A DNA stretch of 39,954 nucleotides from Myxococcota bacterium (GTDB lineage: Bacteria > Myxococcota_A > Polyangia > Polyangiales > Houyiibacteriaceae), in NCBI GenBank assembly GCA_028284955.1, contig JANQQS010000112.1, forward strand, positions 1 to 39,954, read 5' to 3'. The notes beneath the pieces are model-generated. The model did not search any database, had not been told where the DNA came from, and saw only the letters and a program-made list of their open reading frames with translations. Positions 5,772 through 27,894 of this stretch are shown one piece after another; within the stretch, counting starts at the first letter, position 1; each line of letters begins with the position of its first letter. A program made the position numbers and the translations under genes.

Positions 5772-6710
5772 CTAGAGCAGACCCGTCACGCCAAGACCCA
5801 CGCCGAACGGCGTCACGAAGATTCGCTGCGGCGCTCGGTCGCCCCGCAGGCTCGAGACGTTGTCGTCGCCGCGATGGATAGGCTTTCGGTAGTGGAACAC
5901 CCAGGGAATGAACAAGCCCGAAGCGGTGCCCACAGCCGCGCCCATGAGCACGTCGCTTAGGAAATGCTGATCGGCCATGACGCGAAACAAACCCGTAGCG
6001 CCAGCGGCCAGCATCATTCCCGCGCAAGGCGCGATTTCGGATCGCCCTCCCCCGTGGATCGGAACGTAGGCGTGATGCATGCAGGTCGCTCCCGCGGCGG
6101 TGAATGCGATCGCGGCGTGGCCGCTAAAGAAACTGCGAAAACGATTTCCTCCATCGCATTCGTCGGACTCGAGCGGCAAATCGTTGCCGCATACGCGAAC
6201 GAAAGGTCGCTCGCGGCTCGTTGTGACTTTGGTCACGCCCATGATCGCGGCGGTCACCAGCATCGCCTCCATGGTCGCCAACGTCAGCTGAACGCCAACC
6301 TTGGGGCTCTCGCGCACCCACGCACTCATGAGCAACGCATCGATCAGATACGGATAGGAAATAGTCAGCGAAAGCAATGCATCGCTCGTATCGCGCACCA
6401 CCTGGCGCCCAAATGAGCGTGGCACCCGCAGCGCGTCGCGCGACGATTCGTCGAAACTGTTGCGCCGCTGCCAATGATCCGAGCGAGGCCCAATCACCAG
6501 CGACGCCACGAGCGCCGCAAACGACGTTCCTGAAACGACTATCTCAGCCGCGCCAAACTCGGGATACGGCCATTCCAGCGCAGCATGGGACGCGGGTTCA
6601 GGCGCCGCACGGCTCGCTTTCGGGTCCTCGTCAGCCGCGGCGTGCCGCGGAACCCACATCGAAACCAACATCCCAATCGCAAGCCAAGCCCTGTGACAAG
6701 TCGTACTCAA
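5772..6710 (-). CDS. PAP2-family phosphatase, exported
   Basis: A membrane or periplasmic phosphatase of the PAP2 superfamily, which dephosphorylates phosphatidate, isoprenyl pyrophosphates or similar lipid phosphates. All three signature motifs are visible: K-x6-RP (K161...R168-P169 in KVTTSRERP), SGH (S196-H198 in SFFSGHAA), and R-x5-H-x3-D (R243...H249...D253 in FRVMADQHFLSD). A signal peptide at the N-terminus (LAIGMLVSMW, then RHAAA) fits export. The first start is a TTG at 6710; an ATG at 6671 would shorten the signal peptide too much, so TTG was kept. The gene lies 21 bp after the patatin gene, in the same frame as its stop codon, which suggests co-transcription with the lipid-oxidation block. 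Confidence 0.85.
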   Translation of the reverse strand: MSTTCHRAWLAIGMLVSMWVPRHAAADEDPKASRAAPEPASHAALEWPYPEFGAAEIVVSGTSFAALVASLVIGPRSDHWQRRNSFDESSRDALRVPRSFGRQVVRDTSDALLSLTISYPYLIDALLMSAWVRESPKVGVQLTLATMEAMLVTAAIMGVTKVTTSRERPFVRVCGNDLPLESDECDGGNRFRSFFSGHAAIAFTAAGATCMHHAYVPIHGGGRSEIAPCAGMMLAAGATGLFRVMADQHFLSDVLMGAAVGTASGLFIPWVFHYRKPIHRGDDNVSSLRGDRAPQRIFVTPFGVGLGVTGLL

Positions 6711-6731: not shown

Positions 6732-7742
6732 TCAACGCGCTTGCGATACAAGGAGATCGACAAATGTGTCGAGGCGGTCTTCGTTGTCGACCACTGCCGC
6801 GGTTCCTGCGGCGTCGAGCTCCTGCATATTGTCCACGTCGACGTTGTCGAGGTCGGCGTTTTTCTCGGGCAATCGCGTGTCGATACGCAAGTACTGAGAG
6901 GGCGCGTTCACCGCGTCGAAGATTTGTCGCAACTGAAAATCGACTGTTTCGCCGACGGCCGACATCATCACATTCACGATCGGCTTGGTCCATTCAGCAA
7001 GCCCCCACCCTTTCGCATCCTCGTAAGGATAGACGCGTTCGTGGGTGCCCGTGCCGAGGGAGAGAATGGCCATCTGCACCGCAGTCTTTCCCACAAACCG
7101 ACGCACTTCGGCATAGGCGCAGAGCGCCGGGTTGCTCGCGAACACGCCGCCGTCCACGAGAGTGTAGGTTTCGTCGGCGTCGGACCGAATCCGCGCGCAT
7201 TCAAAATACGTCGGCGCGGCAGATGTGGCGCGGGCGACGTCGCGCAATCGGAAGTTCCGATGGGCATCCCCCTGCGCACGATGCTGAGTAAAAAAGTGAG
7301 TCCGTCGTCGCTCGAGGTCGTACGCGGTAATCAAACTCGGCTTGAGCAAATCCGAAAGCTTGAGGTCGCTCAGGTAGGTGTCGAGCACGTTCTCGAGACC
7401 TTCGGCGGGGTATCTCTCGTCGAGCAGGCCCCATGCCGAACGCACGCGGTGCCACACCGAGGCATCGAAGATTTCGCGGCCGCGCTCGTAGTAGAGCTCG
7501 AGCGCTTGGCTCGCGCAAAAGCGTGGTCGCTCCGGGTCCTCTGCCCCCGGAGTGAGAAACACGCAGGTTAAGATGCCGCCCGTGCTTGTGCCCGCGATAA
7601 AGTCAAAATAGTCCGAGATGCATGCATCAGAACGCCCCGATGCTTCTCGGATTTTTTTCTCAAGAGCAATCAGCACGCGGGCCGGAATAATGCCGCGAAT
7701 GCCGCCGCCATCGATCGAGAGAATTCGATAAAGCTGCCCCAC
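6732..7742 (-). CDS. Patatin-like phospholipase
   Basis: This 336-residue protein is a cytosolic patatin-family acyl hydrolase, expected to release fatty acids from phospholipids or other esters. It has the oxyanion loop DGGGIRG (about 11-17), the nucleophile elbow GTSTGG (Ser about 53) and the catalytic Asp in LVDGGVFASNP (Asp about 197), so the Ser-Asp dyad is intact. It lacks a signal peptide. It starts at a GTG at 7742 with a GAGAGGG ribosome site inside the end of the upstream gene, whose TAG stop is only 2 bp away, so translation is probably coupled. Patatins can also be effectors of CBASS defence, but no nucleotidyl cyclase gene is nearby. Its setting among oxidases suggests it feeds fatty acids to them, which is inference. 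Confidence 0.92.
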   Translation of the reverse strand: MGQLYRILSIDGGGIRGIIPARVLIALEKKIREASGRSDACISDYFDFIAGTSTGGILTCVFLTPGAEDPERPRFCASQALELYYERGREIFDASVWHRVRSAWGLLDERYPAEGLENVLDTYLSDLKLSDLLKPSLITAYDLERRRTHFFTQHRAQGDAHRNFRLRDVARATSAAPTYFECARIRSDADETYTLVDGGVFASNPALCAYAEVRRFVGKTAVQMAILSLGTGTHERVYPYEDAKGWGLAEWTKPIVNVMMSAVGETVDFQLRQIFDAVNAPSQYLRIDTRLPEKNADLDNVDVDNMQELDAAGTAAVVDNEDRLDTFVDLLVSQAR

Positions 7743-7744
7743 CG

Positions 7745-8710
7745 CTAGGCCCTCTCACGAGGAACCACGCAATCCTCGGTGCACTGAAAATGCTCGTACC
7801 ATTGGTGGGCACGAATGCGGGTGGGGAACTCTCCCTGTTCGGCGTCGGCATGATCGGTGGGGTCGGTCTTGATCATGCAGCGGGCATCGATGCGGCTTTC
7901 TTCAAAACCATCCACCACGACCTCGCAGCGGTACTCCTGACCGGGACTGAGCGCCGCCGAGCCCAGCATCTTGAGCTCCACCACAGCGGTTTGCCCGCTC
8001 GCCAAGTCGACCGTCGGCGGAGAAGCGTTGAGCGACGCCGCGGCTCCTCCAGGGCCAACCCAGGGAGTCGATGCAATGGCGAAGGATCGCGTCTCTGTGC
8101 CTTCGTTTCGAATGGTCAGGCTCGCGGTTGGCTCCACGCCGCGCTCGATCTTCCAATCGATGCTCGGCTTCACGCGTGGCTTGCCAAAGTTGGCGACCGT
8201 TTTGACGCCTTTTCGATAGCCAGTTGTTTCCCCCGACTGGCTAACGGTGCATGAGTCGGTCGAGTCTTTGACCACGCTGCACAAAATCTTCACGCAGCGT
8301 TCCCATGTCGCCGAAAACAAAAACTCCGCGCGATAATCTTGGCAAGCGGTAAGCTGGTCGCTGTTCTGCAGACGCAGCTTGACCACGGTTTGATCGCCAG
8401 GCGCCAAGTTCGCAGATGCCGGGCTTACGGTAATGGCCGCCGTGCCCGTGCCCGCACCTGCCAGCGGGGTGGTCTTAAACGAAAACGTTCGCGCTTGCTT
8501 CCCGGTATTGCGAACCACGACCGAGGCTTCGGGAGTCGCGCCGCGGCCAAACACCCATCGAATGGTGTCCACGCATCGCGGCGGGCACTCGGTTTCGGGT
8601 ATCGTGCACGGGGCGCACTCGTCTTCCTTGGCATGACGAATTGCTTCGAGAAGACCTTGCGTCATCTCACGCAGGTGGGTACCGAGGAAGATTTCAAGGA
8701 CAGAGCTCAT
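7745..8710 (-). CDS. Non-secreted protein with two Ig-like domains
   Basis: The 321-residue product has no signal peptide. A short N-terminal helical region (SVLEIFLGTHLREMTQGLLEA) leads to a small Cys cluster (CAPC, CPPRC at about 33-46). Two similar beta-sandwich domains follow, at about 50-150 and 175-275. Each has the pattern of an Ig-like or ASH-type repeat: VVVRNTGKQARTFSF / LTIRNEGTETRSFAI, then NLAPGDQTVVKLRL / DLASGQTAVVELKM, then a conserved Cys-x-(D/E)-YRxE segment. An excellent AAGGAAAAGG ribosome site precedes the ATG. It is the gene before patatin and follows another Ig-like protein gene, so the three probably act together. The function is unknown; a scaffolding or lipid-binding role is a guess. 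Confidence 0.7.
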   Translation of the reverse strand: MSSVLEIFLGTHLREMTQGLLEAIRHAKEDECAPCTIPETECPPRCVDTIRWVFGRGATPEASVVVRNTGKQARTFSFKTTPLAGAGTGTAAITVSPASANLAPGDQTVVKLRLQNSDQLTACQDYRAEFLFSATWERCVKILCSVVKDSTDSCTVSQSGETTGYRKGVKTVANFGKPRVKPSIDWKIERGVEPTASLTIRNEGTETRSFAIASTPWVGPGGAAASLNASPPTVDLASGQTAVVELKMLGSAALSPGQEYRCEVVVDGFEESRIDARCMIKTDPTDHADAEQGEFPTRIRAHQWYEHFQCTEDCVVPRERA

Positions 8711-8737: not shown

Positions 8738-9625
8738 TCATTCAACCGGCGGGATCGAATCTCCCGCCTGGGTGCGCAAGCGAAAACGAAACCGGCCTTC
8801 GCCGAGCCGCGCCAAAGTAAGATAGTCCCGGTCGATGTGGAGCGATTCGGGCACCGTCATCTCGAGCTCGAGGAGCCGCGTTTCGCCAGGGGGAAGCTCG
8901 CCGTAGCCTTTCTTAATTTTGATTCGAGCGACGGGCGGTTCATCTTCCGCAAAGCGCTTCACAAAATCATCAAGAAACTTCTGATACCCGTCTTGTCCTT
9001 GGTGGAGCGCAGCGGCGTGAAAGTGATGTGGCCAGCCGCGGTCGGATACATGCATGCGCGCGGGTACGCCGCGCGGGATGGTGGTGGGTATGTTGCCGGT
9101 GTTGGTCGCGCTGACGTTCACGCTAAGCTTTTCGCCCGGGACCACCGCAACGGATACCGCTTTGGGCGTGAACCTCGTTTTTCGGTGCTCGAGCACTTGA
9201 ATCAGGACCTTGCGCGCGCTTCGACCCGAGCCTTTGAGCACCGCGGTGAACGTTCCTGGTGCAAGGTGGGGAGGAATTGAAAGTGCGAGACGAAGCTCTT
9301 GGCTTTCGCCCGCACAAATGCGACCCGATGCGTGTAGCGCGACGTTGACGTGGGTCTGCTCCGCAGGCTGCTCTTTCGGCGAGGTCGGCGTCACACAGAC
9401 TCGTAGCTCTTCGGCTTCGGTCTGCGCCACCAGTCCTCGAACCCGCACATCATGGGTCAACGTATTGCGCGCCACGATGTATCCAACACACTTCGGCGGG
9501 GGTCCCGCGATCACCACCGGGGCGTCGGCAAACTCAAGCGCACCTTGTTCCGCGAGGGGAGTACGCGGCGCCGGCCGTGGAGGACACTTTTTTTTACCGC
9601 CTTCCGATGGCTCCTCTACCGACAT
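8738..9625 (-). CDS. Ig-like beta-sandwich protein of unknown function
   Basis: This 295-residue, non-secreted protein has a Lys/Pro-rich N-terminus (EGGKKKCPPRPAPRTP) and at least two beta-sandwich segments. One covers about 30-140 (YIVARNTLTHDVRVRG, RICAGESQELRLALSIP, GTFTAVLKGSG). The other covers about 150-285 (GEKLSVNVSATNTGN, ELPPGETRLLELEMTVP, GRFRFRLRTQAG). The phrases resemble Ig-like modules that read ...NTGN...PPGE..., the same style as the gene at 7745. The start ATG overlaps the end of the upstream gene by 10 bp, a sign of translational coupling. I do not recognise a named family. It belongs to a three-gene unit between the dioxygenase-like gene and the patatin gene. Confidence 0.7.
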   Translation of the reverse strand: MSVEEPSEGGKKKCPPRPAPRTPLAEQGALEFADAPVVIAGPPPKCVGYIVARNTLTHDVRVRGLVAQTEAEELRVCVTPTSPKEQPAEQTHVNVALHASGRICAGESQELRLALSIPPHLAPGTFTAVLKGSGRSARKVLIQVLEHRKTRFTPKAVSVAVVPGEKLSVNVSATNTGNIPTTIPRGVPARMHVSDRGWPHHFHAAALHQGQDGYQKFLDDFVKRFAEDEPPVARIKIKKGYGELPPGETRLLELEMTVPESLHIDRDYLTLARLGEGRFRFRLRTQAGDSIPPVE

Positions 9626-10128
9626 TTCTCAGTCTCGCGCGGCTCATAGTCTTCAGCAATCGCCATTCCTTGGCCACACGCTGAGAACTTGAAGAGCGGG
9701 ACACCCAAAACCTGCAAGGTGAAGCTGTAGTTCAGCGGCAAGTGAATGCGAATGGGACGGAACGAGAGCTCGAACTGAATCCGAGGCAACTCTCGAATTC
9801 GGATATCGTCGAGACCGAGGTCGACTTCAGAAGTCGTCCGGACATTGTCGAGACCGAGATCGACTTGCGAGGTGGTTCGAATCTCCGGAATCTGGTCGAT
9901 CGAGGCGTTCACCCGCACTGGTGCAAGCTCACGCAAACGAACATTGTCCAGCCCCAGATCAAGGCCCACGTTCCCGCCGGCCGTGACGTTGGCTCGAATG
10001 TCGTTCAAGCCGACATCCAACCCGCCGCCGAGCTCAAGCCCTCCGCCTACTTCGACGTTGACGTCGGACAAACCCACATCGAGGGAGCCACTTACTCCGA
10101 TATCGCTGACATCTACGTCTGCTGACAT
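9616..10128 (-). CDS. GLD-x-x-R repeat protein
   Basis: The 170-residue product starts at an ATG with an AAGGTGG ribosome site 7 bp upstream. The first two thirds carry about five imperfect repeats of D-(V/L)-G-L-x-(D/N)-(V/I)-(R/N): DVGLSDVNV, DVGLNDIRA, DLGLDNVRL, DLGLDNVRT and DLGLDDIRI. Gly, Val and Asp are abundant and there are few aromatics, so a regular beta structure such as a solenoid or roll is likely. The C-terminal third is different and compact (RIQFELSFRPIRIHLP, VLGVPLFKFSACGQGM, ETEKCR) with two Cys. There is no signal peptide or membrane segment. The function is unknown. It is the first gene of the accessory trio that follows the dioxygenase-like gene. Confidence 0.75.
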   Translation of the reverse strand: MSADVDVSDIGVSGSLDVGLSDVNVEVGGGLELGGGLDVGLNDIRANVTAGGNVGLDLGLDNVRLRELAPVRVNASIDQIPEIRTTSQVDLGLDNVRTTSEVDLGLDDIRIRELPRIQFELSFRPIRIHLPLNYSFTLQVLGVPLFKFSACGQGMAIAEDYEPRETEKCR

Positions 10129-10205: not shown

Positions 10206-12545
10206 TTATCCAAACGCTCGCAAAGGGTGCCGCAGCGGGTCGAGCTCGCCGACATCCCATGGCTCAAACGCATTGTCTACGTTCGCGAGGCCTGTTCGCG
10301 CAAGGCGCGGATAGTGACGAAGCAACACGTTCTTGAACGTGGCGTCGTCGATCCACTGCAGACCCTGCGCTGTATATACCTCTTCGGTGTAGTATTCGGT
10401 GAAAAATCTGTCCGCCTGAAGCCGGCGAGACGCATTGAGGATGAACACCTCGAATAGCGTCTCTCCGAAGCCGAAACCTTCTGGGCGATGCGCCTCGGCG
10501 AGATTGCCGACGAGCAAATCGATGTCCTCGACGCTGTCGTAGACCTGTTTGAGCGCGGCGACCGCGTCTCGATCATCAGTCAAGTCTTCGAAATACTGAA
10601 TCGGGGTAAGCCCGAACAGGCGCCGAAACTGGTTGTAGCGTGGCACGCCCCGTTCCCGGTCGCGCAAAATATCCACTGCGCCCAGGTCGAAGAAGCCAGC
10701 CCCTGGAACGCTTAGGTTCTGAAGCGTTTCGGGATAGTTGTTGAGGACGAGCTGCCCCGAATGCTGAACGCCAAACGAATAGAATAGATCGTCCATGGAA
10801 AACTCTTCGGTCATCGCATGCGAGGCCGCCTGCCGCGTCTGCGCAAGACCCACCGTCTTGACCGGACCGTCGGCGCCATCGATTTCGTGCAGGCCGATGG
10901 TGTCCGGCAAGAGCGAGTGCAGGCGATAGACCGCGAGAAACTCGCGTGTCAACGAATAGGGCACGCCATGATTGTCGGTTTCGTTGCCCACGAGCCCGCC
11001 TGCGATGGGGTCGGTAACGTTCACATCGGCAACGGTCTTCCGGGAGTCTTTTTTGCGGAAGAGATTGGTGAGCAAACCGAACCAGTTGGTATGCATCGCC
11101 GCGTTGAGCGACTTGTTGGGAAGCACCGCGGGAGTCCATTCGACGGTATGAATCTTGGCCATCACCGCCGCGTTGATGAGCCGCGCGGTATCGAAGAGGC
11201 GCTGGTCATCAAAGGTCGGATGATGCTCTGCAAGCATATCGCAAATCGCGTTGTGCTCCTTGACGAAGAGCGTGTGCAACATGCTCAGCCCGACCCACCA
11301 GTTGCGCCGAAAGCCCGTCTGCTCCACGCCATCGGCGAGCACCGGGAGGTTTCCAGTTTTTGAGTCGACGGCGAGCTTGCCGCCCTGGTGGCTGCGCAAG
11401 GATTGAATGGTTTTCTCGTCGCTGCCGTAGATCTGAGACCCGTCCCACCAGCTCGTCACCTCGTTCAGATGCACATTCTCACGCTCGCCGTCCCGGCGGG
11501 TGGGATCTTTTTGGGTCGGGCGAACCAACATATGCGTCTGACGCAGGGTCCTACGCACGGGGTCGTCTTCGGAAAGTGGAATCCGGTAGGGCTCCGCATT
11601 GGACGGATCCCCGTAGCTTACCCAGTCATGATTCATAAACTGAATCCACGACGCCGCGGTAAGGTTCAAGAAGGGAACGGGCTTGAAGCCGTCTTTGCGC
11701 GTGAACAGCACCCGGCTCACCACTCGGGGGTTCGGCGTCATCAGCCGTGGTCCGGTCTCTCCTGGAGTGCTCGCAGGGTCGGTATTGAACCCGAAGCGGG
11801 TGCCCGCCGCGCCGGCCATGGGGTCGCGCAGGTCGTTGTAGCTGCCATCCGCGCTCCGCGCTCGATAGGTTCCCGCCGGCGGCGCGCCCGAGCTTCTGAA
11901 AAAGCCCGTTCCTTCTCGCTTCCCGTACGCGGGAAAGAGCTGCTCTCGGTTCAAGCGCTCGCGCCGCGCCGCGAGCATGAGCGTGCCTCGAAGAAACCCG
12001 TACTCATACCAACTGGTCCATGGGGAGTTGCGGTTCGTCTCTCTTCCTAGGGCGGAGGCAAGAAACTTGACGCTCTTGCCTAACTTGAAGCCACCGAGCT
12101 GCCCGATTCCGTCGCGTACCAAATCGCGAGGCGTTTTTTTTCGAGCCTGTGCGCGCGGGTCGGCTGGCGTCGCCGTGGTTTGCTCTTGAGCGCCCGGTTT
12201 CGGACCGCCCGAGACCTCTGCCGGATCGAACTGAGAAGGCGTGGGAACCGGTCGGGCAATGTCTGATTGGTGGTTGGCCACGCTGAGATCGAGCAGCCGG
12301 CGAAGCTCTCCATCCGCGCGTCCCTTCTTGATCGCGGCACGCAGATGATCCGCGGCTTCGCTATAGCGCTCGAGCCGAAAACACGCCGCGCCTCGCAACG
12401 CATCGGCGGCTCCCGAGGAGTCCGAAATCCCTTCCAATGTGTTCAGCGCAGCCTGTACATCGCCGCGCTCGAGGAGACTCTCAGCTTCGCGTAGTTCTTT
12501 TGGCGAAGAACCGGTGCCCGTTTCGGTAGTCGTCATTCTCGTCAT
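10206..12545 (-). CDS. TPR-fused fatty-acid alpha-dioxygenase-like haem peroxidase
   Basis: A 779-residue member of the animal-type haem peroxidase superfamily, closest in sequence pattern to fatty-acid alpha-dioxygenases. Those add O2 to the alpha carbon of fatty acids to give 2-hydroperoxides. Visible landmarks: distal His306 in FMNHDW; the substrate-carboxylate pair His466 and Thr471 in KIHTVEWT; catalytic Tyr540 and proximal haem His543 in YRLHSLLP; an Arg at 707/708 in ASRRLQADRFFT. Other shared phrases are LFVKEHNAICDML, NHGVPYSL and RDRERGVPRYNQFR. Residues 15-95 are an extra TPR-like helical domain not present in plant enzymes. No signal peptide. A GGGAG ribosome site precedes the ATG, and the upstream gene ends 2 bp away. 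Activity on free fatty acids is inferred from the conserved residues. Confidence 0.88.
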   Translation of the reverse strand: MTRMTTTETGTGSSPKELREAESLLERGDVQAALNTLEGISDSSGAADALRGAACFRLERYSEAADHLRAAIKKGRADGELRRLLDLSVANHQSDIARPVPTPSQFDPAEVSGGPKPGAQEQTTATPADPRAQARKKTPRDLVRDGIGQLGGFKLGKSVKFLASALGRETNRNSPWTSWYEYGFLRGTLMLAARRERLNREQLFPAYGKREGTGFFRSSGAPPAGTYRARSADGSYNDLRDPMAGAAGTRFGFNTDPASTPGETGPRLMTPNPRVVSRVLFTRKDGFKPVPFLNLTAASWIQFMNHDWVSYGDPSNAEPYRIPLSEDDPVRRTLRQTHMLVRPTQKDPTRRDGERENVHLNEVTSWWDGSQIYGSDEKTIQSLRSHQGGKLAVDSKTGNLPVLADGVEQTGFRRNWWVGLSMLHTLFVKEHNAICDMLAEHHPTFDDQRLFDTARLINAAVMAKIHTVEWTPAVLPNKSLNAAMHTNWFGLLTNLFRKKDSRKTVADVNVTDPIAGGLVGNETDNHGVPYSLTREFLAVYRLHSLLPDTIGLHEIDGADGPVKTVGLAQTRQAASHAMTEEFSMDDLFYSFGVQHSGQLVLNNYPETLQNLSVPGAGFFDLGAVDILRDRERGVPRYNQFRRLFGLTPIQYFEDLTDDRDAVAALKQVYDSVEDIDLLVGNLAEAHRPEGFGFGETLFEVFILNASRRLQADRFFTEYYTEEVYTAQGLQWIDDATFKNVLLRHYPRLARTGLANVDNAFEPWDVGELDPLRHPLRAFG

Positions 12546-12547
12546 GG

Positions 12548-13699
12548 CTATCTCCCAACTCGTTCCCCGACGTGTCCAAACCCGTGCGCTCCATCGTGCC
12601 CATTGGTGCTGTGTCCGTTGGCGCGATCCTCAGTCGCAGCGCCTTCCGAACCGGAACCTGCGCCCGCCAAATCTCCATCACGACGAACGATGCTCCATGC
12701 AAACTTCGGCATGATTCGTTGTGCCGGACGGAGAAAACGTTTCCATCCTGTCGCGCTGTGCTCTCGAGCCCCGGCCGCAGCGAGCCAAACCGATTTCAGC
12801 ATGTCTGGCACCACGTGATTTGCCGGGCATGCGCTCCAGGTATCGTCGAGAAACGCGATTTCGAGGTCGCCAGTATTCCGGTACGCCCGTCCGAGCAAGA
12901 ACACAACCAGCGTTCGGCGTTCCAGCGGCTTGTTCAGGAACGAAGCCGACACGTCGCGCGCGCAACCGCGGAGCACCGCCGGAGGCACGAACAAACACTG
13001 CCGCATCGCATCGTCCGCGTCTACACCGGACACGCCTCGACGTCCGGTCCCCTGACGATTGGCCAGGTTCCGAAGCGACCGAACAGATCGCGCAATGTTT
13101 TCCATCGCAATGCTCGTCGCGTGAATGCAGTGACGGTCATTTTGCGCCGCTGCGGAGACGCGTCGTTTCGCGTCTGCGAGCCGAGCTCGAGCGCTCGTCC
13201 CCCAGGTTCGCCAAGGCGGCGCGCTGGTCCACTCCGCAATGTAGCGCCCGGCTCGATAGCTCTCTGGGGTCGCGCGGTACTCTTCAAAAAAGAGGCGTCC
13301 ACACCACTGCTGAACGAATACGCCAACGTCGCGCTCACGCGGAATCGTCTCTTCCGCGTCATCGCCGTTATCGCCGTGTGACCCATGCGCCGGTTCCTGC
13401 GCAACATAGGCCCCAAGCTGCTCAATCTCTTTAGTGCGAACGCCCAACCGCGCCCGCAGGTTGTCATGCAGCTCGGCCTGCCGGCGCGCCCGCTCGTCAT
13501 CGTCTTGATCCAAGAACGCCGGAAGCACCCCGCCATCAAACCGTAAATCTACGGCCAACCGGCGATGCAAGAACCGATGCAACACACTCGCGCTCGGGTC
13601 GAGCGGCCGGACGACATCGGGATGCGCGTTGAGCCACCGGATTTCTTCCGGATCACTGACCAACACCACATCGACAAACCACGGCAGCCTGATTCTCAT
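12548..13699 (-). CDS. Unknown protein between the DyP and dioxygenase genes
   Basis: The ATG at 13699 (MRIRLPWFVDVVLVSDPEE) gives 383 residues and lies 4 bp after the DyP stop codon; a longer start at 13735 would overlap DyP. The N-terminus (VVLVSDPEEIRWLNAHPDVVR) reads like the beginning of a cytochrome P450, where the phrase is DPE-x-(V/I)-x-x-x-L. But no P450 Cys haem signature (FxxGxxxCxG), ExxR helix or oxygen-binding motif was found further on. Other features are a Trp/Arg-rich centre (AEWTSAPPWRTWGTSARARLADAKRR), a segment LVVFLLGRAYRNTGDLEIAFLDDTW, and a His/Gly/Asn-rich tail (NGHSTNGHDGAHGFGH) that may bind metal. It ends 2 bp before the dioxygenase start, so the two are almost certainly co-translated. 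Confidence 0.7.
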   Translation of the reverse strand: MRIRLPWFVDVVLVSDPEEIRWLNAHPDVVRPLDPSASVLHRFLHRRLAVDLRFDGGVLPAFLDQDDDERARRQAELHDNLRARLGVRTKEIEQLGAYVAQEPAHGSHGDNGDDAEETIPRERDVGVFVQQWCGRLFFEEYRATPESYRAGRYIAEWTSAPPWRTWGTSARARLADAKRRVSAAAQNDRHCIHATSIAMENIARSVRSLRNLANRQGTGRRGVSGVDADDAMRQCLFVPPAVLRGCARDVSASFLNKPLERRTLVVFLLGRAYRNTGDLEIAFLDDTWSACPANHVVPDMLKSVWLAAAGAREHSATGWKRFLRPAQRIMPKFAWSIVRRDGDLAGAGSGSEGAATEDRANGHSTNGHDGAHGFGHVGERVGR

Positions 13700-13703
13700 G
13701 ACA

Positions 13704-15242
13704 TCACTCCGTTCCCTCGCCCGGTTTGCCCACAAAGCCTTCTGCTTCGCCTAGGAAACGAAGCGCACGAATCCCCGGCAAGAAAAAATATGCGCCGCCC
13801 ACCACCGACACGAATCGCGGAAGACCAACGCATCGAGTCCGCACGGGGTTGCCAGGAACCCGAAAAATATTCTCGGCGCTGGCTCCCGTAATGGGGTCGG
13901 ACTCTCCGAACATCCCGTTGAACCGTGGGTCGACGATCCACGAATGCTGTACGAACTCAAACTGCCGCGAAATATTCGCGTTGACCGCGACGAACATCAA
14001 CCCGCGATCGGCGTTATCCACCGCGCCGGGAGGGAGCTCTCCGCCGTAGATACGACCGCGCCGCAACATACGATGACGACGGTTGACGGTCAGCGACTCT
14101 TCGGTCCCCGGGCTCGGCTCGAGTGCGTCGCGGGGATTGGCTCGGCGAACATGGGCTCCCACGGGGCAGCTGAGACCTTCGCGGTCTTCACGGTGATAGC
14201 CGAAATCGTTCTCTCGTGCCTTCGACGGGTCGTCTTGATGGGGCGACGCCATGAGCGGCGCGCCGCTCGGCCAACGGCCCACCATTTGCGCGGCCAAACG
14301 CTCCTGTTCTTTGACGTTGGGCGAGCCGTCTTCGTTGCGCGTAAGCGCGTCGAGGGTTTCGCGGAACGCGACCACATCCTGGCGCAACTGCCGCATCACC
14401 AAATAGGTTCCGTTGCGGCCAAAATCGCGCAAGGTCGAACCTTCCACATCCGCCGGTAGCGATAGCGCGCCCGGACGCGATCCGTCGACCAACGGGCGGT
14501 CGGTGTAGAGACCATATTCGTTGGGATAGCCGAGAATGAATTCCCCTGCGCGCACTCGATGGTAGGTCGATGACGCCTCGTGGTAACCCTCGATGGCGGG
14601 CTGAGAAATCCCATCCGCGAAACCAAAATGTTCGCGACCCGACCGCGGACAAGTCGGCAACGCATGCACATCAGCCCATCCCGACTCCCGCCATAGTTCT
14701 TGCTCTGCTTGAAAGCGCTCGCTCGTCGCTGCGCGATCCGCGCCATACACCATCAATACCGCGTGAACGGTTTCCGATGTCGGCCCGCCCCAGGCCCAGC
14801 GCTCGGGCGCACTTTCCCCGACATCACCCAAAAAACGGCTGCGGTGATCCCCGTACATGCCCTCAATAAACTCCCGCGAGAATCCGCGGAGCGCGCGTTC
14901 CGGCAAACCAAGCGCGGCGAGGCCTGAGTAGGTGAACGCGAGATGCAGCGCAAACCTTTCCGCGCGCGGCGTTCCTGCCGCGACCTGGCTAGCCACACGC
15001 GCAATCCAGGCTCGAGCCTGGATCGGCTCACGAACCTGGAGGAACGCGTAGTGACAGCACGGCAGACGCCCGTACCCACGAAATACGATCCCCTGAACGT
15101 CATCGGTCTCGATCGCAGGCGCCGGCTCGGAGCGCTCCACGAGCCGCTTCATCGCACCGCTCTTGCGGCGCACCGCCGTGATCAGCCGCTCCGCCGCGGT
15201 GGACCCCAAAGCCCTAGACGCCCCTAGAGTAGTCGAAGCCAT
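13704..15242 (-). CDS. DyP-type haem peroxidase
   Basis: A 512-residue dye-decolourising-type peroxidase, which uses peroxides to oxidise varied substrates through a haem. The distal motif GFADG with catalytic Asp (about 210) is present in HFGFADGISQP, as are the proximal haem His in CPVGAHVRRANPRD (about 364) and the distal Arg region HRMLRRGRIYG (about 390-400). The C-terminal ferredoxin-like half includes NANISRQFEFVQ and SWIVDPRFNG. It is longer than short bacterial DyPs and resembles the larger class. No Tat or Sec signal is evident, so it is probably cytosolic. Its start overlaps the upstream gene by 19 bp. In this setting it may use fatty-acid hydroperoxides, which is inference. No encapsulin gene is nearby. 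Confidence 0.95.
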   Translation of the reverse strand: MASTTLGASRALGSTAAERLITAVRRKSGAMKRLVERSEPAPAIETDDVQGIVFRGYGRLPCCHYAFLQVREPIQARAWIARVASQVAAGTPRAERFALHLAFTYSGLAALGLPERALRGFSREFIEGMYGDHRSRFLGDVGESAPERWAWGGPTSETVHAVLMVYGADRAATSERFQAEQELWRESGWADVHALPTCPRSGREHFGFADGISQPAIEGYHEASSTYHRVRAGEFILGYPNEYGLYTDRPLVDGSRPGALSLPADVEGSTLRDFGRNGTYLVMRQLRQDVVAFRETLDALTRNEDGSPNVKEQERLAAQMVGRWPSGAPLMASPHQDDPSKARENDFGYHREDREGLSCPVGAHVRRANPRDALEPSPGTEESLTVNRRHRMLRRGRIYGGELPPGAVDNADRGLMFVAVNANISRQFEFVQHSWIVDPRFNGMFGESDPITGASAENIFRVPGNPVRTRCVGLPRFVSVVGGAYFFLPGIRALRFLGEAEGFVGKPGEGTE

Positions 15243-16492
15243 TCTTGTGCCTCATCGTCAGTCATGTCGCCTCGAAGCCCCGCCCGAAGGGCGGCGTTGC
15301 GCTCAATATTTACTGCCGTGAGCTCAGGATATGCGGAGTACCACACCGGTGTCGGGATCTGGTGGCGCCGGAGGTAGTCTTTAAATTCCTCCTCGTAGCT
15401 CGCGCCGCCAAATACCAACCAACGAGTTGCAGGGTAGCCATCTCCATTGCTGAACACCAGGTTCAGCCCCCACCCCACCAAATCGATAAAGTCATTGTTG
15501 TAGCTCTCGACGCTTCCATCGAAGTTGCTCGCAAACACCACCCGGCGACCGCCATCGAGAGGAATCCAGCGCGCAAAGTGGATGGTTTTCACTCCTGCCA
15601 GCGAGTCTCGGGTGAATAGATGACGCGTCCCATAACCGACCAGCGGCAGCACGGAACGAACCACCAACTGGCGAAGCGCGCCGCGCTTGACGTAGCCACC
15701 TGCGGTGTAGCCATTGTGGGCGAAAAAGTCTTCGAGCTCCGTCAGGCGACGTAGATGCTCGGGGGATGGCCGAATGTGGTCGGAACGATCGCGAAGCTCT
15801 TGCAGGCGCACCATGATCATGACCAGCACCGTCAACGGAACAACCACTGGGCTGAGCGCCAGTAGTCCTAGCGGTCGCGCCACGAAATCGATCGCATCTT
15901 TGGCGCGTTGCTTCATCGGCACCGCCGGCGGCGCCTCCATCGCCCACTGCAGCGATGGCTCGCGGCGTACAAAATCGACCATGCGCGCACGCGTTTGGCT
16001 AGAGGAGAGCGTCGAAAAATCATGTCCATCGGCGAATGACTGAAGCGCATCATGAAGCATCGCCTCATGTCGAATCTGAGACACGGTACGACCCGGTCGA
16101 TGCACGTAGTTCGCCGGTGTTTCCACTCGATGCTGGCGCAGGTAATCCAGGCGCTGGGCCGGCGACGCGGGCAGCGCAGGATACCCCCTGCCGTGTTCAA
16201 ATATTTGGTCGATCCCGTCGCCCGCCGAATCCACCAGCGCTTCGAGAAATCGTTCTGCGGGGCCATCACAGTCGGCGAGCAAGATCAGCTTCGGCTCGAG
16301 CGGTCGGCCTTCAAGGTCAACCGCATCCGGCATGCACACCAGCCGACCAAAATGACACGTATCGAGCGCGCCGAATGAGAGATAAGCGTTCTCCCCCGGG
16401 CTGTCGCGCATCCGACGCAGCACGGCCTCGAGCGCATCGACGCGAGCCGACTCGACCGGAACTACCAGGGTTAGGGCCTCTTGTTGTGCCAT
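15224..16492 (-). CDS. Membrane protein with internal duplication, unknown function
   Basis: The ATG at 16492 (MAQQEALTLVVPVES) has an AAGGA site 7 bp upstream; a TTG at 16507 is less likely. The 422-residue protein contains two related halves. Residues 46-150 carry CHFGR, LLADCDG, GRGYP and YLRQHRVETPANYV. Residues 304-405 carry IHFAR, FASNFDG, GDGYP and YLRRHQIPTPVWYS, in the same order and spacing. A hydrophobic helix (about 207-229, LLALSPVVVPLTVLVMIMVRL) separates them. The HFAR...(D/N)xDG pattern recalls ferredoxin-like folds of the DyP/chlorite-dismutase type, but no haem ligand can be assigned, so that link is speculative. It is co-transcribed with the DyP gene, which it overlaps by 19 bp. 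Confidence 0.75.
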   Translation of the reverse strand: MAQQEALTLVVPVESARVDALEAVLRRMRDSPGENAYLSFGALDTCHFGRLVCMPDAVDLEGRPLEPKLILLADCDGPAERFLEALVDSAGDGIDQIFEHGRGYPALPASPAQRLDYLRQHRVETPANYVHRPGRTVSQIRHEAMLHDALQSFADGHDFSTLSSSQTRARMVDFVRREPSLQWAMEAPPAVPMKQRAKDAIDFVARPLGLLALSPVVVPLTVLVMIMVRLQELRDRSDHIRPSPEHLRRLTELEDFFAHNGYTAGGYVKRGALRQLVVRSVLPLVGYGTRHLFTRDSLAGVKTIHFARWIPLDGGRRVVFASNFDGSVESYNNDFIDLVGWGLNLVFSNGDGYPATRWLVFGGASYEEEFKDYLRRHQIPTPVWYSAYPELTAVNIERNAALRAGLRGDMTDDEAQEWLRLL

Positions 16493-16555
16493 GACAGTGT
16501 CCTTCAATGCAGCTCCGAAGCGGGCTGTCGCGCGAAGCGTTCCCTCGCGCGAAGA

Positions 16556-17032
16556 CTACGCCGCGATCGTCTGTCCTGCGAACTCTTCTGCGGTGTCCTG
16601 AGCAAACTCGAGCGTGAAGTAAATCAAGCGCGTGTGATTCCAATACACGAGCCCAAGGTACAGCCGCGGCGCGACCTTGCGAATCTCGTCGCGAATGTAT
16701 CGCGCGACAACCGACCGCTTTGAGTAGTCGAGCACGATACATTCTTTTCCATCGAACCAGCTGCGGTCCCAATAGACGTCCGCAGTGATTGCGTGAACTC
16801 CTGCGGGCAAGATTTTATTCTGCAGCTCGCGCGCTTCTGAGTTCACGACTTTGCCCTGCCACGCCACCATGCGCACCAGCCGCTGCACCACGCGTTCAGA
16901 TGCACTGCCGGGTTTGAAAATCGCCGTGCCGGTCGCATCCCCGTGGGGAATGGGGCCGGTGGTGCCTTTGCGAAATAGCTCGTCCACCTCTGCGGGGGAC
17001 ATTCTTGAAATCTGATCAACGGTGATGGTCAT
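16556..17032 (-). CDS. Small conserved-looking protein of unknown function
   Basis: The 158-residue product starts at an ATG with a GGAG site 6 bp upstream. It has a helical N-terminus (ISRMSPAEVDELFRKG), then GPIPHGDATGTAIFKPG and a strongly patterned core: VNSEARELQNKILP, ADVYWDRSWFDGKECIVLDYSKRSVVARYIRDEIRKVAP, LYLGLVYW. The aromatic and acidic pattern SWFDGKECIVLDYS suggests a folded domain with a conserved pocket, and the alternating beta strands at the end could form a small barrel. There is no signal peptide and no named family is recognised. It is the first gene of the minus-strand oxidase block and is divergent from the lipase gene. Confidence 0.75.
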   Translation of the reverse strand: MTITVDQISRMSPAEVDELFRKGTTGPIPHGDATGTAIFKPGSASERVVQRLVRMVAWQGKVVNSEARELQNKILPAGVHAITADVYWDRSWFDGKECIVLDYSKRSVVARYIRDEIRKVAPRLYLGLVYWNHTRLIYFTLEFAQDTAEEFAGQTIAA

Positions 17033-17043
17033 GGATCGCTCCT

Positions 17044-17098
17044 GCCGCCGCGGTATGGGCCGCCGCGGTGTAGGCCGCCGCGGTGTAGGCCGCCACGG
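17044..17098 (+). repeat. 15-bp GC-rich tandem repeat in the leader of the minus-strand block
   Basis: Three units of GCCGCCGCGGTGTAG (the first ending TATGG) start at 17044, 17059 and 17074, with a partial fourth at 17089. The array lies immediately upstream of the ribosome site of the 158-residue gene. On its transcript the units would be GC-rich and contain the self-complementary CCGCGG, so they could fold. The plus-strand reading frame through the array gives RRGVG repeats, but it is short and unsupported. Confidence 0.85.
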
Positions 17099-17217
17099 AG
17101 GACGAGAATCTTACGCCGAAGTTGCGCCGAACGAGAACACCTACTTTGCGTTCGATGAGTTTTTTCTTGTCCGTCACAGTTTCGAAAAACAGAAGTTGAC
17201 AGCTTGGTAAGCGAGGT
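17099..17217. promoter_or_regulatory. Divergent intergenic region between the oxidase block and the lipase
   Basis: The gap between the two divergent units must hold the promoters of both. It is more AT-rich than the flanking genes (for example TTTTTTCTTGT at 17160-17170). A TTGACA hexamer occurs at 17196-17201, but a -10 at normal spacing would fall inside the annotated lipase start. It would fit only if the lipase starts at a later codon, such as the ATG at 17239. No regulator gene is adjacent. Confidence 0.35.
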
Positions 17218-18603
17218 ATGGAATCGAATCAAGAATCGATGCGCAACGAAACATTTTCAGCCTCCGAATCACCAAGCTCCGAGCGACTATCCCAACGTAC
17301 GGAGCGGGGTTCCCACGTAGTCTTTCTGGTACCAGGACTGCTCGGTTTCGAGCGTTTTTCTACCTTCAGCTACTTCGCCGATCGAGTTTCGGCGGCGCTC
17401 CGAGCCGGCCTCGAACAGGCTTGGGACGCCCCCGTTCCGGTCATCCCGGTGCCGATTCCTCCCACTGCATCGCTCTACGATCGGCAGCGTCGGCTGGTCA
17501 AAACACTCGCCGATCGCATGGACGCGCTCAGCGACACCGGAAACGGGGACGCAAGCGCACTTCAAATCCATCTCGTGGGACACAGCACGGGGGGCGTCGA
17601 CGCCAATTTGCTCACCAGCCGTGTGCCGCTACCGCCTCGCGGGTTAATCGGACGCGGCAACACCGACGCCGAGGATTGGGCTCAGGTCGATCGCCGCGCG
17701 CCGAATATCCTGAAACGCATCCGAACAGTGGTAAGCATTGCGAGCCCCCATCAGGGCGCATGCATCACCCAAGACCCAGTGGCGCGCTTGGTCAGCCAAC
17801 GCGACGTACGGGGCACGCTCGACCTCTTGGTGCTACTGGGGAAGTTCGCCTGGGGCACGATGTGCGACGTCGATCTCGGGACGTTTGCCACCAGTGCGGT
17901 GCGCGAATCCGGAAAAACGGCGCGATTTTTGCGCGACGTCTTCGATCAGTGGGAGCTGCTCGAAGACCTGCACCCGTCGCGTTCGGCACAACCCGTGGAC
18001 GCACGCTCCGACGTCGTGCGGCGTACTTTTGTCACCATCGCCGCGACTCCCTCGGATGATGAGACACATACACCTAGCGCCAACGCATTCTTTCTAGATT
18101 TGTCCCGGCGCGCATCGGGGCGGCACACTGGCTGCACCGACGAAGGCGCCGCGGTCTCGGCCGCGGTAAGTCGCTTGCGACTCGCGCTCGCCGATGCCGA
18201 GCTTCGAGGCTCCGACGCACGGGTCCCCGTCATCAAAAGCCGCGGCGCAAAATGGCCACACGACCTTGATGCGGGCCACAGCGACGGCGTCGTCAACACT
18301 GCGAGACAACTCATCGACCCGGCAAACTCCGATGAACTCGCGGGAATCATCGTCGGCGATCATTTCGATGTGCTCGGCTACTACGACCGCCGCGTGTGGC
18401 GAACCGACGACTCCGGCCGCGAACGAGCTGCCCGTGTGCTCGCCGGCCTTTTGCACAGCGGAAGCATGTTTGGCGACGACCAGTTTTTTGCGCTGTACCG
18501 ACAAGTCGCCGACGTTATCGCGGCCGCTGCAGCCAGCTCGCGCGCAGAGCCTCCTCCGGACCATGCGGGTCGCAAGCGTCCCGCGCTTTCCACGACCGCA
18601 TAG
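17218..18603 (+). CDS. GHSTGG alpha/beta-hydrolase lipase
   Basis: The 461-residue protein is an alpha/beta hydrolase of the lipase type. The strand VVFLVPGLLGFERF (about 34-47) gives the oxyanion loop, LVGHSTGGVDANLL the nucleophile elbow (Ser about 123), and IRTVVSIASPHQGA follows as in triacylglycerol lipases. DAGHSDGVVNTARQLI and DHFDVLGYYDR near the C-terminus probably supply the acid and the His. There is no signal peptide, so it likely acts in the cytosol or is released another way. A Ser-rich N-terminal 30 residues may be unstructured; the alternative start at 17239 would remove seven of them. The catalase-like gene follows 42 bp downstream, so the two form an operon that could supply and process fatty acids. 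Confidence 0.88.
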   Translation: MESNQESMRNETFSASESPSSERLSQRTERGSHVVFLVPGLLGFERFSTFSYFADRVSAALRAGLEQAWDAPVPVIPVPIPPTASLYDRQRRLVKTLADRMDALSDTGNGDASALQIHLVGHSTGGVDANLLTSRVPLPPRGLIGRGNTDAEDWAQVDRRAPNILKRIRTVVSIASPHQGACITQDPVARLVSQRDVRGTLDLLVLLGKFAWGTMCDVDLGTFATSAVRESGKTARFLRDVFDQWELLEDLHPSRSAQPVDARSDVVRRTFVTIAATPSDDETHTPSANAFFLDLSRRASGRHTGCTDEGAAVSAAVSRLRLALADAELRGSDARVPVIKSRGAKWPHDLDAGHSDGVVNTARQLIDPANSDELAGIIVGDHFDVLGYYDRRVWRTDDSGRERAARVLAGLLHSGSMFGDDQFFALYRQVADVIAAAAASSRAEPPPDHAGRKRPALSTTA

Positions 18604-18645: not shown

Positions 18646-19896
18646 ATGCTCAACGGCGAATTCATTCACAACTTCCTGGTTTCGCTCATGCACTTTGAGC
18701 GGCGCACCGAGCCTTTCTGGCGTCCCAAGGTCAATCGGATGTTTCGAGAGCCCTCGGCGGCCGTGCTGCAGAAGTTGATCAATCTTCGCCGTCGCGACGA
18801 AGGGTTGGCGCTGGCTGAGGAACGTGAGCTCGAAGGCGAGGAGGAAGCGCTTGATTCCATCATCGCCGACATGGGCGAATACATGCGGCGCAAATATCGG
18901 CCAGGCGAATACGAACGCGTAGGCAACACCAAAACACACGGCCTGGTCCGAGCTGATTTTGTCATTCGAGAGGATTTACCAGCCGACTACCGACACGGCG
19001 TGTTCAAGCAGCCGCGCACCTTTCCGGCGTGGGTTCGCTTTTCCGGCCCCGGACCCGACAGCCCCCCGGATATCGACGATGTTGGCTTCATGAGCATGAC
19101 CGTCAAGCTCATGGGAGTCCCCGGGGTCAAGCTACGCGACGATGAAAAGTACACCCAAGATTTTCTCTGCGTGGTTACGCCCACCTTCGTCACGCCGAAT
19201 ATTATCGCGAACTCACAACTGCAATCTCAGCTGCTCCGTCGAACACCGCTGTATTACTTCTTCGATCCGCGGCATCCCCACGTTCTCGATTTTCTGATGC
19301 AGAGCTTGTGGAACGAAACGCAAACCAGCCCTCTAGAAGCCCAATACTACAGCTGCGTGCCCTATCTGCTCGGCATGGAGCGCGCAATGCAGTACTCGAT
19401 GCGGCCCAAGAGCCAGCGCCGAAGCCGCATTCCAAACCTTCCCGGCCGCCCGCCAGACCACTACCTGCGCGACAACATGGCCGCGACACTCGCCAAACAG
19501 CCCGTCGAGTTTGATTTTCTGATTCAGATGCAGACCAACCCGCACACCATGCCTATCGAAAACGCGGCCGTGCGATGGCCGCTCGACGAATCGCCCTACG
19601 TGCCAGCGGCCACGATTCGTATTCACCAACAGCGATTTGATTCGCCGGCCCAGCTCGAGTTCGCGAAACGCCTATCGTACACGCCGTGGCACTGCATCCC
19701 TGAGCATCGCCCGCTGGGCAATCAAAACCGCGCCCGGAGACGCATGTACTGGGAGCTTTCGCGGTTGCGGCTCAACAAGAACCGCGTGGACCAGTACGAA
19801 CCCACAGGCGACGAAACGTTTGAAGATGTTCCCGAACCCGTGACGCAATCGGAAAGCCCGCCGCGGCGCTCCGTTCCCGCGGCCAAAGCGAGCTGA
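18646..19896 (+). CDS. Catalase-related haem protein
   Basis: The 416-residue product has an AAGGA site 8 bp before the ATG and the core of the catalase superfamily, but it is shorter than true catalases. The distal His is in NTKTHGLVRADF (His about 98). FPAWVRFSGPGPDSPPDIDDVGFMSMTVKLMGVPG matches the segment after it (WVRFS...DxxGxxxKLxGVPG). The proximal Tyr is likely in RARRRMY (Tyr about 368, with Arg 364 in an R-x3-Y arrangement). Catalase-related proteins of this size include allene oxide synthases and hydroperoxide-converting enzymes, as well as small catalases. Being coupled to a lipase and facing a fatty-acid dioxygenase gene favours hydroperoxide metabolism, but simple peroxide detoxification cannot be excluded. 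Confidence 0.85.
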   Translation: MLNGEFIHNFLVSLMHFERRTEPFWRPKVNRMFREPSAAVLQKLINLRRRDEGLALAEERELEGEEEALDSIIADMGEYMRRKYRPGEYERVGNTKTHGLVRADFVIREDLPADYRHGVFKQPRTFPAWVRFSGPGPDSPPDIDDVGFMSMTVKLMGVPGVKLRDDEKYTQDFLCVVTPTFVTPNIIANSQLQSQLLRRTPLYYFFDPRHPHVLDFLMQSLWNETQTSPLEAQYYSCVPYLLGMERAMQYSMRPKSQRRSRIPNLPGRPPDHYLRDNMAATLAKQPVEFDFLIQMQTNPHTMPIENAAVRWPLDESPYVPAATIRIHQQRFDSPAQLEFAKRLSYTPWHCIPEHRPLGNQNRARRRMYWELSRLRLNKNRVDQYEPTGDETFEDVPEPVTQSESPPRRSVPAAKAS

Positions 19897-27046: not shown

Positions 27047-27894
27047 CAGTGTGCGTCCAGCCACGCGATGGGCTCGTCCCAGAGCCGCTCGGCCGGAGGT
27101 CGAAAGTATCCAAAATGACCGATCGCCGACATCCCCACTGCGGAAGGAACCACATGCCTTCGCTCCAGGTTGGGATAGGCACGCATCATCGCATTGACCG
27201 CCGTCTCGGTGCCCCACTTGTCGTCGGCGAAGCTATAGGCAAGCACCGGCGCCTGAAACGTCTGATAGCGCTCGAGGGGGAGCGATCGGTCGCCGAGAAG
27301 GTAATCCGGATGACGACACCATCGGGACCATTCGAGCGCCGCGCCTTTGGGGAGGTCTTCACCACTGCCAAACCGGCTCCAAGGAACGTACCCCATGACG
27401 TTGGCCAGAAGCGGCATCGTGACGTGAACGTGAAATGCCACCACGGCTTTTTGTTCGGCGCCTTGCAAACGCCAATGACCGCTCTGAGAAGAAAACGTCA
27501 CCATCCCGTCGAGGGGAGGCAGATCGTCCAGCAATCCTGCAACCTGTCCGCCAACGCTATGACCCACAAAAAAAAGCTTCTTTGGCCTCAGTTCCGCGGA
27601 CGCCCAATCAGCGACGCCGGCCATGTCGAGCAACGCCCAATCGCGCATATGGGCGAGAAATCCTCGCAGCTGTTCAGGCCGAGAGCCACCGATCCCGCGG
27701 TAGTCATAGGTGACAACATGGTACCCCGCGCGTGCTAGGCGAGCGGCAAAGTGTCGATAAAAACGCTTCGGAACAGCGGTTGCGCTGTTGACCACGACGA
27801 CTCGGCTGGTCGGGGACGCAGGCTGAAATAGATGGCCCGACAGTCTAAATCCGTCGCGAGCCGGTATCGTGAGGTCGTCGTGGGCGGAGGACAT
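27046..27894 (-). CDS. Cytosolic alpha/beta hydrolase (S33/serine aminopeptidase-like)
   Basis: The ATG at 27894 (MSSAHDDLTIPARDGFRLSG) gives 282 residues without a signal peptide. VVVVNSATAVPKRFYRHFAARL and VVTYDYRGIGGSRP mark the first half, FFVGHSVGGQVAG holds the nucleophile (Ser in GHSVGG), and the lid region AFHVHVTMPLLANVMGYVPWSRFG follows. FADDKWGTETAVNAM probably gives the Asp and SAIGHFGYFRP the His. The family hydrolyses esters, lactones or amides; the substrate is unknown. Its stop TGA shares the A with the ATG of the FAD dehydrogenase. It is divergent from the kinase operon, with which it shares a 195-bp control region. Confidence 0.85.
   Translation of the reverse strand: MSSAHDDLTIPARDGFRLSGHLFQPASPTSRVVVVNSATAVPKRFYRHFAARLARAGYHVVTYDYRGIGGSRPEQLRGFLAHMRDWALLDMAGVADWASAELRPKKLFFVGHSVGGQVAGLLDDLPPLDGMVTFSSQSGHWRLQGAEQKAVVAFHVHVTMPLLANVMGYVPWSRFGSGEDLPKGAALEWSRWCRHPDYLLGDRSLPLERYQTFQAPVLAYSFADDKWGTETAVNAMMRAYPNLERRHVVPSAVGMSAIGHFGYFRPPAERLWDEPIAWLDAH

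Follow-up and report, generated by a model that had tools for sequence, protein, structure and literature searches.

What part does a fatty-acid alpha-dioxygenase (aDOX) play when it carries an extra N-terminal domain and lies among genes for lipases and further heme proteins? Alpha-dioxygenases are known as plant enzymes, and a few cyanobacterial examples have been characterised. The gene considered here lies in a stretch of 39,954 nucleotides (contig JANQQS010000112.1; hereafter the window) from a Myxococcota bacterium of the order Polyangiales, and is the only aDOX copy in that genome. Its product was found to be a genuine aDOX by family, with 2R-hydroperoxidation as the predicted activity, preceded by a short domain that is predicted to be of the TPR type. 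The surrounding locus probably encodes a fatty-acid alpha-hydroperoxide (oxylipin) cascade in which the TPR domain would serve as a docking module, a reading that we hold with moderate confidence. The gene and its parts are as follows.

10206..12545, minus strand: TPR-fused fatty-acid aDOX, 779 aa, ATG start
12264..12503, minus strand: TPR-type domain, two helical hairpins and a capping helix (residues 15–94)
10239..12065, minus strand: aDOX catalytic domain (residues ~161–769), bearing H306, H466, T471, Y540, H543 and R708

Family and active site of the alpha-dioxygenase

The Pfam family An_peroxidase spans residues 230–748 of the 779-aa open reading frame (ORF) with an E-value of 2.9e-116. 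A PDB search with the protein put the aDOX of rice (3.1e-119) and DOX1 of Arabidopsis (2.8e-112) at the top, the next family being represented by a match labelled lactoperoxidase (1.9e-37). All seven active-site residues of the rice enzyme OsDOX, with roles as given in PMC8720084, have counterparts in the alignment: H157, H311, W315, T316, Y379, H382 and R559 correspond to H306, H466, W470, T471, Y540, H543 and R708, respectively. Of these, Y540 is the catalytic Tyr, H543 and H306 are the proximal and the distal heme His, and H466, T471 and R708 would position the carboxylate and the alpha carbon. The counterpart of R559 is the second arginine of the ASRR motif (R707/R708), and in PDB entry 4kvl, a Y379F mutant, the mutant phenylalanine stands opposite Y540. 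An earlier note, made from the sequence alone, had listed HDW (H306), HTVEWT (H466/T471), YRLH (Y540/H543) and ASRR as distinguishing motifs; all were recovered at the residue numbers it gave, and its catalytic tyrosine is correctly placed.

Among 104 aligned sequences (99 aDOX, with five ordinary bacterial heme peroxidases as the outgroup), H466, W470, T471, Y540, R541, H543 and R708 are identical in every aDOX row. In all five outgroup peroxidases the positions of residues 466, 470 and 471 are occupied by T, F and L, and that of 708 by L. This division is more than chance would give, and the alignment does not place the protein with non-oxygenating peroxidases. The distal heme His (H306 in the window) is present in 92 of the 99 aDOX rows, one of the remaining seven being a truncated gene. 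It is replaced by Ser, Gly or Arg in four TPR-aDOX (L094, L096, L097 and L098) and in L173:11544-13619 and L174:9617-11620; the same six proteins retain the catalytic Tyr, the proximal His, the Thr and the Arg.

An AlphaFold2 model of the 779-aa protein, built from 20 sequences, had a mean predicted local distance difference test (pLDDT) score of 76.7 and a predicted TM-score (pTM) of 0.83. Foldseek placed four plant aDOX entries on top (E ~1e-40; next 3.6e-23). With VIA-align, the model matched Arabidopsis DOX1 (4hhr) with Z 37.3 and a root-mean-square deviation (rmsd) of 2.7 over 567 residues and the rice aDOX structure with Z 36.0 and rmsd 2.8 over 569 residues, ahead of the next family at Z 30.7; model residues 169–769, that is, without the TPR part, are covered in at least a fifth of the rows. 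The structural comparison with DOX1 that the earlier note had called for therefore ranks plant aDOX first, and sequence, structure and tree agree in its choice of an aDOX over a non-oxygenating peroxidase.

One or two TGA or TAG codons were listed in the match rows of 10 relatives, and recoding was considered as an explanation. In the three loci opened the stop lay outside the aligned catalytic part; the remaining stops are taken as alignment overrun beyond the terminal stop, with no recoding. No match to the aDOX query was found among viral contigs.

The N-terminal TPR-type domain

The N-terminus is a TPR fold by prediction. The AlphaFold2 model has one hairpin of helices 15–26 and 30–37, a second of helices 46–57 and 61–73, and a cap at 79–94, with pLDDT mostly 87–96; a disordered linker (95–138) follows, in which model confidence is low at 102–130. 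The Pfam TPR gathering thresholds were not reached, the scores being 17.7 against 32.7 bits for TPR_16, 16.4 against 23.5 for TPR_14 and 19.8 against 27.2 for ANAPC3. The TPR-like addition of about 90 residues described in the earlier note is borne out in size (~80 residues, then the linker), in its modelled hairpins and in the conservation of the region in 12 other loci. It is the fold class alone that suggests a docking role for this domain.

Distribution and phylogeny

Across 84,980 species genomes, 586 relatives were detected, and the best 80 of them were kept. The match extends into the TPR region in 11 of these best 80 of 586 (L090–L099 and L114), as the alignment confirms. Within the order, 183 genomes were scanned as well; one of them, from another family of that order and designated G405, carries a TPR-aDOX that is 67% identical over residues 8–778. 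TPR-aDOX thus occur in the window and at least 12 other loci and constitute a widespread subfamily, carried by at least six phyla (Myxococcota, Pseudomonadota, Planctomycetota, Verrucomicrobiota, Nitrospirota and Gemmatimonadota, with three further carriers given without rank), most of the carriers being metagenome bins. In a sample of 377 Myxococcota genomes, 13 other genomes had an aDOX (best E ≤ 1e-90). The TPR domain was seen in none of the 12 N-termini inspected, several of which start with signal-peptide-like stretches, and the thirteenth gene, in genome G335, is truncated. The Pseudomonas-type aDOX ORFs (L113, L115, L117 and similar) are, at ~915 aa, longer than the plant-type enzyme.

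In the tree of all 104 rows, 12 of the 13 TPR forms make up one early-branching clade (SH-aLRT 90), and L114 falls outside it, beside a TPR-less Mumia gene. A more careful tree of 45 rows also has 12 TPR forms on one side of a branch, at a support (77/89) that is not decisive, with 100/100 both for a core of nine TPR forms and for the window with G405. The hypothesis that the 13 TPR forms make up one clade was rejected (p-AU 3e-83). The reason is L114, whose partner in the tree is L100 (99/91), the Mumia aDOX without a TPR; this pairing therefore implies either a loss of the TPR in L100 or a separate gain in L114. The presence of one lineage across many phyla suggests that TPR-aDOX have spread by horizontal transfer. 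No description of a TPR-fused aDOX, or of an aDOX-DyP-patatin cluster, was found in open-licence PMC papers.

Organization and conservation of the locus

The following genes surround the aDOX gene.

16556..17032, minus strand: A158, conserved protein of small size, transcribed first in the operon; 65% identity in G405, 59% in G335 and 45% in L158, there beside a cyanobacterial aDOX
15224..16507, minus strand: B427, protein partner of DyP, fold unknown, hydrophobic segment at its centre; 427 aa when read from TTG (a start at ATG 16492 is possible)
13704..15242, minus strand: DyP-type heme peroxidase, 512 aa, with Asp210 in GFADG and proximal His364
12548..13699, minus strand: C385, aDOX-associated protein of unknown fold, 383 aa from ATG 13699, with an invariant Cys near the C-terminus
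9616..10128, minus strand: D170, repetitive LDVGL/LDNVR protein, no Pfam family; 45% in G405, same place
8738..9625, minus strand: E295, immunoglobulin (Ig)-like or bait-region-like accessory protein, Pfam A2M_BRD below cut-off; 35% in G405
7745..8710, minus strand: Ig321, Ig-like (choice-of-anchor D type) accessory protein, profile matches below cut-offs; 42% in G405
6732..7742, minus strand: patatin-like phospholipase, 336 aa, 2 bp after Ig321; Pfam Patatin 2.4e-25, PDB patatin-17 5.8e-41
17218..18603, plus strand: H461, lipase-like alpha/beta hydrolase with a GHSTGG motif; 53% in G405, same place
18646..19896, plus strand: K416, catalase-related heme protein with an RRRMY proximal motif and the His of KTHG; 73% in G405

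Nine genes on the same strand are transcribed in the order A158, B427, DyP peroxidase, C385, aDOX, D170, E295, Ig321 and patatin, the eight intervals between them ranging from -19 to +77 bp (4 bp between DyP and C385, counted from the ATG at 13699). A PAP2 gene (5772-6710) lies 21 bp beyond the patatin gene, and H461 and K416 are divergent from the operon. In G405, A158, B427, DyP, C385, TPR-aDOX, D170, E295, Ig321, H461 and K416 are found in the same order at 35–73% identity (66% for the aDOX), and an extra, second aDOX without a TPR heads the operon. In G335 a non-TPR aDOX is followed by A158, B427, DyP and C385, after which the contig ends. A short tandem GC-rich repeat (ACCGCGGCGGCC type) occupies 17040-17110 of the window, within the divergent promoter region and directly upstream of A158. 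At 25616-27217, several kb from the cluster and between two alpha/beta hydrolases, the window also has an FAD-linked oxidase (FAD_binding_4 and FAD-oxidase_C), possibly a 2-hydroxy-acid oxidase.

Heme enzymes, lipases and partner proteins

The DyP assignment is supported by a score of 107.4 bits against NCBIfam TIGR01413 (cut-off 100.5) and by PDB entry 8re3 (E 1.6e-54); D210 and H364 are invariant in all eight members aligned, as are R391, R394 and R395, in keeping with a conserved distal Arg. B427 is adjacent or fused to a DyP in all 12 other loci fetched, the stronger matches among 19 genomes with a match. It has no PDB relative, and a degenerate DyP was rejected as its identity (hhalign probability 0.2, without support).

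K416 searched singly was assigned to no family. Its family profile matched PDB entry 3e4w (4.4e-20), many catalases (down to 8e-10) and coral allene oxide synthase (1u5u, 2.7e-7). All seven aligned members of the K416 family have the proximal RxxxY, and the distal His is absent in L042 and L095. Within the best 80 of 586 relatives, K416-family genes occur in four of 11 TPR loci against none of 69 others (Fisher p 2e-4), a value to be read with two of the four loci in the building set of the profile (K416 alone finds both) and with near-identical loci that are not independent.

Fusions were found at several other loci. A catalase-related domain is joined to an aDOX in L042:105-3101 (998 aa), to B427 in L071, and to B427 and DyP together in L072:6803-10708 (1301 aa). 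On plasmids of Novosphingobium, Sulfitobacter and Pararhizobium, P450-like, B427 and DyP parts are combined in proteins of 1443, 1620 and 1423 aa (L082:5820-10151, L083:5802-10664 and L084:5835-10106), of which the P450 domain is weakly recognised and the DyP domain is C-terminal. Most enzyme parts of the locus are therefore linked by fusion somewhere; patatin, H461, C385 and A158 were not seen in such fusions. An apparent patatin-catalase fusion in L096 proved to be an ORF artefact.

C385 has neither a Pfam nor a PDB match. Its relatives adjoin aDOX genes in G405, in G335, in Qingshengfaniella and in five cyanobacterial loci, lying upstream of the aDOX in L112, L127, L133 and L166 and downstream in L158 by profile search. 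Searching 72,556 plasmid records gave a single match, a gene annotated 1 bp after the aDOX gene of Qingshengfaniella. This repeated placement beside aDOX marks C385 as an aDOX-linked family. Its N-terminus and a C-terminal F-x-x-x-x-W-S-x-C-P, with a Cys invariant in nine of nine members, had prompted a comparison with cytochrome P450. This identity was set aside, as Pfam searches of the nine members and a PDB profile search gave no P450 and hhalign to P450 sets gave a probability of 0.1.

H461 has no Pfam match, and its GHSTGG, read from the sequence, is presumably a lipase-type motif. A158 was considered as a lipid carrier; structure prediction from two sequences gave a mean pLDDT of 34.

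The neighbours of other TPR-aDOX genes vary. A P450 lies directly upstream in L091, a lipoxygenase lies directly downstream in L096 and L097, and a GMC oxidoreductase and a cytochrome-c-type protein are near the gene in L092, L093 and L098. Patatin genes are near it in L095 and L097 (with a weaker one in L094) and catalase-related genes in L090, L095, L096 and L114, while L099 has none of these lipid- or oxylipin-type neighbours. A RoxA-like Pfam match was obtained for two of 39 neighbour proteins; RoxA-like di-heme proteins include a fatty-acid 10S-dioxygenase and a diol synthase of P. aeruginosa (PMC4496055). Comparison of TPR with non-TPR neighbourhoods is biased, some queries having come from TPR loci and the neighbour lists having been edited.

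Proposed pathway

In the cascade that we favour, the patatin (6732-7742) and H461 would release free fatty acid. The peroxide-activated heme of the aDOX would generate a radical on Tyr540, as in plant and cyanobacterial aDOX, and this radical would abstract an alpha-carbon hydrogen from the free fatty acid, which His466, Thr471 and Arg708 would hold in place. Addition of O2 would then yield the 2R-hydroperoxy fatty acid. The chemistry of a heme-generated Tyr radical, alpha-C-H abstraction, O2 capture and 2R-hydroperoxide formation is described for aDOX in PMC9305512, according to which the 2R-hydroperoxide, left alone, decays to the C(n-1) aldehyde. K416 and the DyP (with B427) may convert this unstable hydroperoxide to a defined product instead of leaving it to decay to the shortened aldehyde, the DyP step being the boldest part of the scheme. 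A precedent is provided by the Nostoc 10S-DOX, a member of the same superfamily, which passes its hydroperoxide to a separate catalase-related lyase (PMC13049297). The TPR would dock the aDOX in the assembly, its partner probably being a widely shared component and not an Ig-like protein. The data establish family membership, the active-site residues, the conservation of the cluster, the fusions and, by prediction, the TPR fold; we infer the activity, the order of the steps, the product and the TPR partner.

Much more tentatively, the scheme may extend to several phyla. The TPR-docked aDOX would then be the entry point of a modular multi-heme oxylipin pathway comprising a lipase, the aDOX and interchangeable heme enzymes that process the hydroperoxide (catalase-related, P450, or DyP with B427), together with C385, and the DyP of the window would act on 2-hydroperoxy fatty acids. 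That TPR-aDOX occur in six or more bacterial phyla, surrounded by lipases and varied peroxide-using heme enzymes, points to unrecognised bacterial oxylipin pathways. If the DyP of the window does act in this way, fatty-acid 2-hydroperoxides would also be a natural substrate class for DyP, a family with a role that is mostly unknown; for most of its members the physiological function is described as completely unknown in a review (PMC7611857).

Several observations weigh against the proposed cascade. The TPR is short and below every Pfam cut-off, and the distal His is missing in four of the 13 TPR-aDOX, although the window protein has H306. A second, non-TPR aDOX heads the operon in both G335 and G405, and the C385 neighbours in Qingshengfaniella and the cyanobacterial loci are all non-TPR aDOX; the module of A158, B427, DyP and C385 may thus belong first to the non-TPR enzyme. 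The window and G405 are the only TPR-aDOX loci in which these four genes were found, and the DyP step is accordingly not general. Many Myxococcota loci carry B427 and DyP without an aDOX, and the DyP may therefore have another substrate. Finally, no homologue of the patatin was found in the G405 contig stretch.

Alternative explanations

The locus could instead serve catabolic alpha-oxidation, the aDOX only shortening fatty acids by one carbon via the aldehyde, with the TPR and the neighbours accessory to lipid turnover and the DyP and catalase-related proteins merely removing peroxide. The unaided decay of aDOX hydroperoxides to the shortened aldehyde (PMC9305512), the lipases adjoining the aDOX and the FAD-linked oxidase several kb from the cluster fit this explanation. 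So does a Streptomyces plasmid aDOX locus (L086:1937-9908) with an alpha/beta hydrolase, a P450, an FAD-linked oxidase and a benzoylformate decarboxylase, a plausible alpha-oxidation set. However, neither an aldehyde dehydrogenase nor an aldehyde reductase showed up in the cluster. Elsewhere, catalase-related and DyP proteins are fused to aDOX or to one another, an arrangement that speaks more for the transfer of substrate than for the removal of peroxide. We regard simple alpha-oxidation as rather doubtful.

It is unlikely that the TPR tethers the aDOX to the Ig-like proteins of the operon, as the earlier note had proposed. Ig321 and E295 do lie in the same operon, close to the aDOX gene, and are conserved in G405, which lends the proposal weak support. 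However, a hidden Markov model search of all collected loci found these proteins in the window and G405 only, that is, in two of 13 TPR loci, and binding them is therefore probably not the general role of the TPR.

An anti-phage module, or one like the cyclic-oligonucleotide-based signalling (CBASS) systems, centred on the patatin and carrying redox enzymes as additions, appears very improbable. The patatin matches the PADLOC phospholipase effector models (2.8e-67) and scores just below the NCBIfam CBASS lipase cut-off (195.8 against 200). However, a Pfam scan of 30 window ORFs turned up no CD-NTase cyclase, plant patatin is closer than CapV in the PDB (5.8e-41 against 1.5e-24), and the gene is not conserved in the G405 stretch. 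That the protein is a non-oxygenating heme peroxidase merely resembling aDOX, with which it shares a Pfam family, is hardly credible, since active-site residues, tree and structure all group it with aDOX.

Comparison with known systems

The plant aDOX (OsDOX, 4kvj/4kvl; DOX1, 4hhr) share with the window protein the seven active-site residues, the fold (Z 36–37, rmsd 2.7–2.9, ~570 residues) and 37–38% identity over the structural alignment. They differ in having no TPR and in branching elsewhere in the tree, and an operon with a lipase and a DyP is a feature of the bacterial gene. The cyanobacterial CalDOX and LepDOX (PMC8720084) are likewise bacterial heme aDOX with the same residues; a plasmid aDOX of Calothrix sp. 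PCC 6303 has patatin and GMC genes nearby, and C385 relatives stand beside several cyanobacterial aDOX. However, the cyanobacterial enzymes are of ~585 aa, lack the TPR and fall in a different clade, and no DyP or B427 was found near them.

The Nostoc punctiforme 10S-DOX with its catalase-related hydroperoxide lyase (PMC13049297) similarly combines a dioxygenase of the heme-peroxidase fold with a separate catalase-related enzyme; it differs in performing 10S- and not alpha-oxygenation, and no TPR or DyP is mentioned in the available text of that source. In the coral allene oxide synthase-lipoxygenase (1u5u, 3dy5), to which the K416 family has a weak profile match, a catalase-related hydroperoxide processor is fused to a fatty-acid dioxygenase, but the latter is a lipoxygenase and not an aDOX. 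The DyP of the window resembles known DyP-type peroxidases (8re3; TIGR01413) in its catalytic Asp, its proximal His and its score above the cut-off, and differs from them in its B427 partner and in its location next to an aDOX gene.

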